DNA of 54,054 nucleotides from an uncultured Anaerolineae bacterium (GTDB taxonomy: Bacteria > Chloroflexota > Anaerolineae > Anaerolineales > Villigracilaceae). Of this stretch, positions 20,122 through 49,087 are shown one piece after another (positions within the stretch are counted from its first letter, which is position 1; each line of letters opens with the position of its first letter). The DNA lies in contig CAKZJX010000114.1 of NCBI GenBank assembly GCA_937120535.1, forward strand, positions 1-54,054. The letters are read 5' to 3'. The position numbers and the translations under genes are program-made. A model generated the notes under the pieces. That model worked only from the letters and a program-made list of their open reading frames with translations. It searched no databases and had not been told where the DNA came from.

Positions 20122-21747
20122 TCACGATTTACGCGGCTGAGAGTCCCTTTGTCGTTGGCGGGTTTGACGGATATAGTCTTTGATCAATTGGGGGGGATGC
20201 GGTTGAGAGCCGCCCATGATCAGGTAGCCAGGCGCCCAGAAATCGCCAGAGGGATTTTCTTTCCGTAGGCGCGGAAACTCGGCAAAGATGCGCTCCGAGG
20301 TCTGCTGGCGCATGATGCGCATCAGATACCCTGGCGAGGTGTTGGGAGGAACGCTCACGATCCACTGCAGATACTCTGGACGCACAGCAATGAAATCCAG
20401 GCGCCAGCCGAAGGCAATGCAAATGGTGGGGACCCATTCGCTCAGGCGATCGGCCAGGTCGCCCACCAGATAATGGGAGCTGAAGCGTGGCACCAACAAA
20501 CAGGCGTAACTGAGGTTGTAGAGCCCTGGCGAGAGGGGTTCAAAGATCGAGCGGCCGGCTACTTCAGTGATCGAATGCGGACGAATCTCGTCCCTCTCGC
20601 CCGTCCCGGTCTGGGAAGAAGGGGAAGGTGATTTCAATTTGGACGGCGCAGTGACTTCCAGGTCTTGGGGGCTGTGTTCAACGGTCTCATCCCTTAGCAA
20701 ATCTTTCAAGGGGACAGGCGGCGAGGACTCGCGGCTGACCGCTCGCGTCTCGGGCAAGGGAGTGGATGGGCGAGTTTCCATGGCCGAGGCTGAGATCGAC
20801 GGAAACGCATCCCCTCCTGGACGTGGGGGAGTTGAAGAGCCACTGGCTTTCGGTGAAGGCGATGGAAGAGGAGAAGGGATATCGCGCAAGATCTCGGCGA
20901 TCGACGGTCCATCGAAATCCAGGTCATCCGAGTCAGGGGGGGAAGAGGGCTCGGCTGAGGGAGAGGGGAAATCGGGTATGGCCGGCGGCTGGGATCCGGT
21001 TTTCTCCATAAGCAGGGAGCGAGCTAGGGCGTTGGCTTGGGTCCGGATAGTGCTAAAGGGCGTTTCGGCGTCGAACACCAAGGCCAAAACGATCCCCTCT
21101 GCCAGGGTGGTTGCGTAGAGCATGTGCTCGGCGCGCGTGGTCTCCAAACGAGCGAAGCGCAGCAGATCGCCCCCTTGTTGCTCATCCCAGTTGCGGGAGA
21201 CGATGCGTGCCAATTCGTTGGCCGTCTCCTGAGAAAGCCCGCCGGCATATGCCCATAGCTTCTTGCCGCGGGTGATCAAGGCGGCTTGGGCAGCGGACTC
21301 CAAGGTTAGCCGTGTCAAGCGTTGAGCGGCCTTGTTGGCATCTTGCAGCCACAACAGATCGGGAGTTTCGGGAAGAGGGGGAATAGGAAGTTCGGGTTCT
21401 GGTTTGAGGCCGAGCATTTCCAGCAGTTCTGGGAGATAAAAGGGCTTGCGCAGTAAGGTCCAGGGCTGAAGCGCCTCCAGGCTGGAGGGCAGTTCCTCGT
21501 CCGAGACAATAATCAATTGCACAGTGGGATGTATATTGCGCAAAGCGCGTCCGATCTCCAGCAGAGCTTCGCTCCCCAAGTCGATGTCGAGCAGGGCAAT
21601 TTCGCAGCTCTCGCTTTTCATTTGTATCAGCGCAGTGGGCTCATCGCCGGCAAGGAACGCCCGAAATCGCCCTGTTTCCTCCAGGCTGGAACGCAACATG
21701 TTGCCAAAACTGCTCTGGGGTGTCACCACAAGAACGGCTTTGCGCAT
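20122..21747 (-). CDS. Receiver - roadblock-like - degenerate IS200-type transposase-domain fusion protein
   Basis: A 541-residue protein with three parts. Residues 1-115 look like a response-regulator receiver: candidate phospho-Asp D54 (ALLDIDLG), S82 and K101 (RKPF), though the usual N-terminal acidic pair is replaced by TP. Residues about 130-247 resemble a roadblock/LC7 small domain. A Ser/Pro-rich, low-complexity linker runs to about 400. Residues 405-535 align by eye to IS200/IS605 TnpA (Y1 transposase): the SVPPNTSPGYLMRIMRQQTSERIF, FWAPGYLI and IKDYIRQ blocks are recognisable, with the catalytic Tyr retained (Y525). The metal-binding HUH is changed to Y459-L460-Q461, so cleavage should be lost. 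It probably binds DNA or RNA hairpins. Start ATG chosen; a GTG lies two codons upstream. Confidence 0.8.
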   Translation of the reverse strand: MRKAVLVVTPQSSFGNMLRSSLEETGRFRAFLAGDEPTALIQMKSESCEIALLDIDLGSEALLEIGRALRNIHPTVQLIIVSDEELPSSLEALQPWTLLRKPFYLPELLEMLGLKPEPELPIPPLPETPDLLWLQDANKAAQRLTRLTLESAAQAALITRGKKLWAYAGGLSQETANELARIVSRNWDEQQGGDLLRFARLETTRAEHMLYATTLAEGIVLALVFDAETPFSTIRTQANALARSLLMEKTGSQPPAIPDFPSPSAEPSSPPDSDDLDFDGPSIAEILRDIPSPLPSPSPKASGSSTPPRPGGDAFPSISASAMETRPSTPLPETRAVSRESSPPVPLKDLLRDETVEHSPQDLEVTAPSKLKSPSPSSQTGTGERDEIRPHSITEVAGRSIFEPLSPGLYNLSYACLLVPRFSSHYLVGDLADRLSEWVPTICIAFGWRLDFIAVRPEYLQWIVSVPPNTSPGYLMRIMRQQTSERIFAEFPRLRKENPSGDFWAPGYLIMGGSQPHPPQLIKDYIRQTRQRQRDSQPRKS

Positions 21748-48862: not shown

Positions 48863-48875
48863 AAGATAACCTATG

Positions 48876-48948
48876 TGGACCCAGAGGGATTCGAACCCTC
48901 GACCTTCTCAATGCCATTGAGACGCGCTCCCAGCTGCGCTATGGGCCC
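48876..48948 (-). tRNA. tRNA-Ala, anticodon GGC
   Basis: 73 nt. Acceptor GGGCCCA / TGGGTCC (one G-T), D-loop with AGCTGGGAG, anticodon stem TCTCA/TGAGA with loop ATGGCAT giving anticodon GGC, T-arm GAGGGTTCGAATCCCTC, discriminator A. CCA is not encoded. It ends 14-26 nt before the leuS T-box. Confidence 0.95.
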
Positions 48949-49014
48949 ATGGGTGATGCTATCCGAACTTGAACAGGGCTCGGTGGCGGCCAGCAGAAGC
49001 CACCCATCGACCAG

Positions 49015-49087
49015 TGGACCTGAGGGGATTTGAACCCCTGACCTCCTCAGTGCGATTGAGGCGCTCTCCCAGCTGAGCCACAGGCCC
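49015..49087 (-). tRNA. tRNA-Ala, anticodon CGC
   Basis: 73 nt. Acceptor GGGCCTG / CAGGTCC, anticodon stem CCTCA/TGAGG with loop ATCGCAC giving CGC, T-arm AGGGGTTCAAATCCCCT, discriminator A. CCA is not encoded. It follows its own strong promoter by about 19 nt. Confidence 0.95.

Follow-up and report, generated by a model that had tools for sequence, protein, structure and literature searches.

What does a transposase fold do in a protein that has lost the residues for transposition? The question is raised by a gene at 20122..21747 (minus strand) of the window, which here means the whole analysed stretch of 54,054 nucleotides. The open reading frame starts with ATG at 21747, its stop codon ends at 20122, and it encodes 541 aa. 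Homologues of this gene, hereafter the REC-roadblock-Y1 gene, are seen in many genomes. The dead transposase tail belongs to an ordinary inherited gene, which usually lies just before polA in mostly uncultured bacteria, and it probably has another job now. At a probability of roughly 40%, the tail is an exapted, catalytically dead TnpA fold, which would act as a nucleic-acid- or partner-binding module in the process of PolA.

Domain architecture and residues of the active sites

The original prediction described a receiver and a roadblock-like domain joined through a Ser/Pro linker to an IS200 TnpA fold. All of these parts are recovered by Pfam, AlphaFold and structure matches. The AlphaFold model of the 541-aa protein was built on an alignment of 46 homologues, and its block means of pLDDT are mostly >90 in the three domains and <50 in most of the linker. 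Residues 1–115 (21403..21747, minus strand) form the receiver fold. Pfam Response_reg covers residues 5–112 with an E-value of 1e-4 and 22.9 bits, under the cut-off of 30.2, and comparison of the model with Spo0F gives Z of 17.4 over 113 residues. The middle domain, residues 130–250 (20998..21360, minus strand), is Roadblock/MglB-like. It has no Pfam match, Robl_LC7 being absent at E-values up to 10, and a Robl_LC7 search of the whole genome of the window returns two other genes, not this one. The whole-model comparison by VIA-align barely probed residues outside 1–115, and a separate model and search were therefore made for the middle domain. Folded alone, it matches MglB (6izw_B) with an E-value of 2e-6 in Foldseek, and shows Z of 14.0 to p14 of MP1-p14 (3cpt_B) and 13.8 to the bacterial Roadblock/LC7 structure 3leq. 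The two folds expected in residues 1–250 are thus supported by structure, while Response_reg stays under its cut-off and the Robl_LC7 match is missing.

The Ser/Pro linker corresponds to residues 251–403 (20539..20997, minus strand). It is disordered and contains conserved columns, with short conserved motifs at about residues 283–295 and 338–343. Residues 404–534 (20146..20538, minus strand) are the IS200/TnpA-type Y1 domain without the HUH motif. Pfam Y1_Tnp covers residues 410–528 with an E-value of 1.9e-13 and 51.1 bits (cut-off 23), and NCBIfam transpos_IS200 gives 54.9 bits for the 541-aa protein (cut-off 55). This part matches TnpA structures 2fyx_A (Z 16.0, 126 residues) and 2ec2_E (Z 16.2, 111 residues), and has the helix/strand order of TnpA together with the VPP, FW-x-x-GY and YI blocks. 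The layout of IS200/IS605 TnpA, proposed for the C-terminal part and to be checked on residues 400–541, is confirmed by both the profile and the fold. A frameshift or an assembly join, which had been named as another possible source of the domain order, is ruled out because homologous open frames of similar length are present at 45 other loci. Elsewhere in the window, tandem tRNA-Ala genes (anticodons ggc and cgc) are seen at 48875-49087 on the minus strand.

Residues were counted in an alignment of 46 rows, which are the window protein and the proteins of the 45 other loci. In the receiver, D54 is present in 45/46 and K101 in 43/46, and Ser or Thr occupies the Ser/Thr position in 18/46 (S82 in the window protein). 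Both positions of the acidic pair are non-acidic in 45/46; Thr-Pro is seen in 29, including T9-P10 in the window. According to the accessible text of PMC12632262, a receiver is a pseudo-receiver by the definition of Bourret and colleagues if any one of the five residues DD, D, T and K is missing. Since the acidic pair is absent, the domain is a pseudo-receiver. The first acidic position is Asp in six receiver-roadblock proteins without Y1 (L028, L031, L200, L202, L224, and L239), as judged by eye. The receiver claimed earlier on D54 and K101 is therefore right in its fold and in these two residues, but the acidic pair is missing. For the same reason, the transposase fold is unlikely to be the output of a phosphorylated receiver. 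The idea of a dead IS200 fold in a signalling protein is supported, as is its vertical inheritance, and this output is doubtful.

The site of the H-x-H metal ligands is Y459-L460-Q461 (20365..20373, minus strand) in the 46-row alignment. The triad Y-L-Q had been placed at exactly these residues. Tyr is seen at the first HUH His position in 45/46 and Gln at the second in 43/46, and H-x-H in 0/46. T529 (20161..20163, minus strand) is aligned with the Gln of the ISDra2 block YIESQ, the metal-ligand Gln of helix alphaD; this position is Thr in 37/46 and Gln in 1/46. The metal ligands of IS608 TnpA are given as H64, H66, D61, and Q131 in the accessible text of PMC5934647, and by simple counting the equivalent of D61 would be R456 here. 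The absence of H-x-H from all 46 proteins, together with Thr or other non-Gln residues at the alphaD position, indicates that the Y1 site is dead in the whole set. Y525 (20173..20175, minus strand), the site of the nucleophilic Tyr, is aligned with the same YIESQ block. The nucleophilic Tyr had been described as kept, and this is true of the window. Its position is Tyr in 34/46 and Phe in 12/46, which indicates that this Tyr is not a protected feature. Several divergent members keep the first His alone: L029 and L181 (THVEV/THIEI), L183 (DHMQW), and L171 (GHLQW). Such members are expected if the site decayed step by step from an HUH ancestor.

Averaged over 1035 pairs, pairwise identity is 70.8% for Y1, 63.9% for the roadblock domain, 38.5% for the receiver, and 32.0% for the linker. 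The domain without catalytic residues is thus the most conserved one, and judging from the alignment it very probably has another function. Loss of H-x-H in 46/46 under such constraint favours the exapted binding module. At least 90% of the rows have Lys or Arg at nine Y1 positions (R421, R449, R456, R477, R480, R486, R493, K523, and R530), which also supports this reading. Against it are seven equally strict acidic positions (D430, D451, E458, E485, E497, D502, and D524) and a median net charge of +2 in long frames and +1 in short non-HUH copies, below the +5 of HUH copies. The lower charge and the changed metal-site residues suit another reading, in which Y1 is a dimerisation or protein-docking module only and the protein serves as a scaffold that does not bind nucleic acid. 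TnpA dimerises, and roadblock domains are protein-interaction folds. TPR genes are also found in both the polA neighbourhood and the Mrr-type neighbourhood described below. However, 71% mean identity seems, in our judgement, high for a mere dimer interface, and the two kinds of neighbours are DNA-acting enzymes. A pure scaffold is rather unlikely.

Distribution, phylogeny and related systems

In a protein search, homologues are found in 56 of 61 genomes of relatives, a count that includes partial matches such as Y1-less or Y1-only genes. All 37 genomes of the family of the window are matched, and 19 of 24 from other families of the order; the five unmatched genomes count against the binding module in the process of PolA. 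The survey of the three-domain architecture that had been suggested thus finds homologues, some of them partial, in every genome sampled from the family and in most from the rest of the order. Across the phylum, 35 of 400 genomes match at 1e-10, and 24 of them belong to the family of the window; no member of this family is among the genomes listed without a match in this draw at that threshold. Five matching genomes of the 400 are outside the class and have the Y1 part alone, in frames of 139–161 aa. One of these copies (L032) was aligned and has H-x-H. Roadblock-profile matches were counted only where the roadblock part is present, as two profile rows included receivers and led to many plain-receiver matches.

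The named loci are the best 80 of 194 stretches encoding a relative. Their records are Anaerolineales, Anaerolineae, and Chloroflexi MAGs, and some bear the titles Brevefilum fermentans, Ca. Villigracilaceae, or Ca. Desulfolinea nitratireducens. The genome of the window contains a single copy of the REC-roadblock-Y1 gene and a distinct second Y1_Tnp gene on contig C23. Short paralogues are also present in some relatives. In family f13 of the class (L205, L207, L209, and L234), long versions with open frames of ~950–1000 aa and a very long acidic linker are observed. Their Y1 fold is barely recognisable, with a Pfam E-value of 9.6e-4, under the cut-off.

The phylogeny was built by a quick method from 74 Y1 domains and 140 columns with a midpoint root, after 8 of 82 domains had been removed as duplicates or fragments; many inner forks are unresolved. 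Copies in open frames >280 aa are called fused. A branch with SH-aLRT of 99 has 30 fused and 10 Y1-only copies on one side, and 30 H-x-H copies and 4 other degenerate copies on the opposite side. The Y1-only copies are a single group (92) nested among the fused copies. H-x-H is missing from all 34 domains (29 distinct) in frames >280 aa and present in 33/38 short copies outside the clade. L142, L163, L300, and L302 are further short Y1 proteins that lie outside the clade and have a broken HUH motif (DHVRL, HYVHL, DHIRL, and DYVHI).

The separation of all 40 fused or Y1-only copies from all 30 H-x-H copies supports an exapted fold. The tree is compatible with a single capture, after which the catalytic site was lost, the gene descended vertically, and short copies were released later. 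In the preferred reading, a receiver-roadblock protein encoded beside polA would have gained an IS200-type TnpA at its C-terminus, probably early in the history of the class, which is Anaerolineae (Chloroflexota) judging by the names of relatives. The captured TnpA would then have lost its metal site and retained its fold. A recent mobile insertion is ruled out by polA synteny and the tree. Instead of several copies at changing places, one copy is seen in the genome of the window, and a place beside polA is shared by 74 of 78 testable loci (among the best 80 of 194). A viral origin was also considered and rejected: a scan of viral contigs gave 4 pattern matches, none encoding a relative.

The window protein shares with IS200/IS605 TnpA (ISDra2 and IS608) the fold, the secondary-structure order, the VPP, FW-x-x-GY, and YI blocks, and the Y1_Tnp match. 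Unlike these transposases, it lacks H-x-H and the alphaD Gln, has a Tyr replaceable by Phe in relatives, and is fused to two domains, and most of its relatives are encoded at a conserved chromosomal place. TnpA_REP/RAYT proteins are described in the accessible texts of PMC6006769 and PMC8266576 as IS200 TnpA relatives kept by the host without insertion-sequence features, and in this respect the REC-roadblock-Y1 protein is similar. In the RAYT family, according to the former text, the HuH/Y core is shared and REP sequences flank several subclasses. In contrast to these surveyed domesticated transposases, the chemistry is lost here, and the one hairpin studied, near polA, is confined to its locus. 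The same survey text reports that Y1 transposases were collected by Y1_Tnp and that a few unexpectedly long proteins were set aside as fusions or annotation errors, a step which would drop proteins like this one.

RomR and MglB of Myxococcus form polarity modules, in which, as far as the accessible descriptions go, a receiver protein and a roadblock protein act together, as the two domains would here, whereas the window protein is one polypeptide with a transposase fold. RomR has a linker. Fusions of Response_reg and Robl_LC7, as given in the accessible text of PMC4316618, have the same receiver-roadblock order, whereas the window protein adds the Y1 domain and has a pseudo-receiver, and its relatives show linkage to polA. 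Among the titles and abstract starts of open-licence papers listed for receivers with Y1, dead domesticated IS200 proteins, and polA in Anaerolineae, none describes such a protein, in agreement with the original prediction, which knew of no such system. The dead fold is the most constrained part of a gene matched in all sampled genomes of the family and most of the order, and it is fused to a signalling scaffold whose gene usually neighbours a core gene of replication and repair. It might serve as a natural experiment on the use of the TnpA fold without cleavage, and as a testable handle on polA in Chloroflexota.

Linkage to polA and the intervening hairpin

In a tblastn search, 74 of the 78 testable loci among the best 80 of 194 have the start of polA less than 2 kb downstream and in the same orientation; L086 and L107 are too short to judge. 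polA starts at a median of ~150 nt past the last matched residue of the REC-roadblock-Y1 gene. The order common to the named loci (best 80 of 194) is the REC-roadblock-Y1 gene, polA, a gene for a 770-aa TPR protein, and often ctaA. The gene clusters of the neighbourhoods come from a simple longest-ORF caller prone to wrong frames in GC-rich contigs, and tblastn was used instead for the polA count. Many members have, directly upstream of the REC-roadblock-Y1 gene, a gene for a 189-aa protein that Pfam does not match (L085:7371-7937; cluster 4, 29 loci).

The linkage extends to other families of the order (L026, L030, and L182-L187). A REC-roadblock gene without Y1 abuts polA in L180/L028, from another family of the order, and in L031, from another family of the class. 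Stretches upstream of polA in other families of the class, analysed in all reading frames, contain a related gene in 4/39 (five of these stretches are shorter than 1.7 kb): REC-roadblock in L224 and L239, a long REC-roadblock-Y1 in L234, and roadblock only in L245. Outside the class, a related gene is seen in 0/20 of such stretches. Methyltransferase, PALP, phosphatase, and XdhC genes are seen as other neighbours of polA in other families according to the Pfam table.

The linkage argues for a role in the process of PolA, whereas the small share in other families of the class and the zero outside it argue against. In L181, a 1,023-aa frame sits between the REC-roadblock-Y1 gene and polA. No polA follows in L055, L059, L060, and L126 (tblastn), and the window is a further exception, with the polA of its genome on contig C86. 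The protein is kept in these cases, in which polA does not follow, and adjacency is thus not required. A common neighbourhood also need not mean a common process: the two genes might share an operon only, with the protein serving an unrelated pathway, for example MglA-type polarity signalling. Its persistence away from polA fits this alternative, as does the tie of roadblock proteins to small GTPases reported in the accessible text of PMC4316618. But the genes are linked throughout the order and in some further families of the class, and the Y1-less form shows this linkage too; a merely shared operon is quite improbable.

In the family of the window, a conserved hairpin is found between the REC-roadblock-Y1 gene and polA. 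It is typically AAGCGCAGAG-TATAAT-nn-CTCTGCGCTT followed by T's. The strict core CGCAGAG-n-CTCTGCG occurs up to 400 nt 3' of the gene at 48/80 loci (best 80 of 194); for 2 of these 80 loci the gene call was not anchored. Elsewhere in 1.2 Mb, it has 2 matches only (L087 and L105), both also between the gene and polA. L082:9650-9680 is an example of this locus-specific hairpin, which often has a perfect TATAAT loop and a T-tract, and is perhaps terminator and promoter in one element. Of the pair cells in the 46 rows chosen, 99.1% form; both sides change in 3 of the 10 pairs, and 4 pairs show no variation. The covariation score is reached by 0/500 shuffles and the number of two-side-changed pairs by 19/500. 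The rows are related to each other and were chosen by the stem pattern, so that the conservation of the inner stem is partly built in.

A covariance model with strict filters finds 31 places at E-values up to 0.01 in 21 of 61 genomes. Thirteen of them, including every one at E-values up to 1.6e-4, are at the 3' end of the REC-roadblock-Y1 gene. The other 18, with scores from 3.1e-4 up, are probably chance. All 6 genomes with a model match <1e-5 among the 61 have the hairpin at the 3' end of the gene. A dispersed hairpin target is thus unsupported. None of four loci compared with Rfam shows a family at the hairpin.

The confinement of the hairpin to this locus would suit a Y1 domain that recognises it and controls termination or initiation as a polA regulator, with the recognition of transposase ends frozen. 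The formed and two-side-changed pairs are on the side of such a regulator, and so are the hairpins without TATAAT, 10/13 of which (pattern-chosen) retain the GCAGAG stem and speak against a pure promoter function. However, the limits of the shuffles and of the choice of rows apply here as well, and the hairpin is not found in the window or its genome by pattern and strictly filtered covariance-model searches. In other families of the order, genes with fused Y1 (L182, L183, L186, and L026) abut polA without it, and the rule that Y1 and hairpin occur together failed on them. The hairpin stays with polA in L091 and L105, although it stays with the REC-roadblock-Y1 gene in L065, L103, and L111.

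The hairpin also resembles an intrinsic terminator, and a terminator joined to the polA promoter may suffice. This is indicated by the T-tract behind it, by TATAAT recurring upstream of polA without such a hairpin (L205, L207, and L209), and by L098, where TATAAT is kept, the stem is decayed, and a separate terminator-like hairpin is present. A search for a -35 element of the TATAAT loop finds GTTCTA 17–18 nt upstream in a subset only. Because of this possible terminator and promoter role, recognition of the hairpin by Y1 is treated as a rival to the main reading, and it is unlikely.

Possible mode of action and the short Y1 paralogues

What is observed are the domains, the loss of the catalytic residues, the strong constraint, the grouping of the dead copies, and the polA linkage; binding of nucleic acid, partnership with PolA, and the signal of the pseudo-receiver are inferred. 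In the preferred reading, the Y1 domain most likely acts as a non-catalytic binder of structured single-stranded nucleic acid or of a DNA-bound partner. The flexible linker would tether it to the roadblock scaffold and the pseudo-receiver. The roadblock domain might dimerise or hold a partner, and the pseudo-receiver would respond to something other than phosphorylation. The target process could be gap filling, Okazaki-fragment processing, or repair by PolA, and the protein would either direct PolA or tune polA expression.

Short paralogues provide a second context. At 11 loci of such genes (10 Y1-only and 1 roadblock-Y1), a gene for an Mrr-type endonuclease is adjacent or within 1.5 kb in 6, a TPR gene is seen in 7, a histidine kinase gene in 6, and a LuxR-type regulator gene in 3, in similar order. 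The Mrr-type clusters are L168:253-7199, L169, L170, L173:596-6371, L174:3327-8879, and L178. They contain the short Y1 (mostly YLQ-type), the Mrr endonuclease, TPR, and sensor histidine kinase genes, with the LuxR-type regulator in 3/6. This order is absent in L172, L175, L176, and L177, of which L175 is a short contig. The Mrr-type cluster resembles a regulated cassette for DNA targeting or defence.

Together with the polA linkage, the Mrr-type genes place a dead Y1 fold near a DNA-acting enzyme in two contexts, and this second link supports a binding module acting with PolA. A bolder and rather unlikely extension is a new DNA-transaction regulator, in which the end-recognition domain of the transposase, dead since early in the history of the class, reads structured single-stranded DNA or a specific hairpin and controls PolA via the roadblock domain and the pseudo-receiver. 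The Y1-only copies would do likewise for the Mrr-type cluster with its own histidine kinase. PADLOC returns nothing for the window protein, one Y1-only protein, and the 770-aa TPR protein. One Mrr gene matches its PDC-S02 candidate models; for the short TPR protein the matches are weak.
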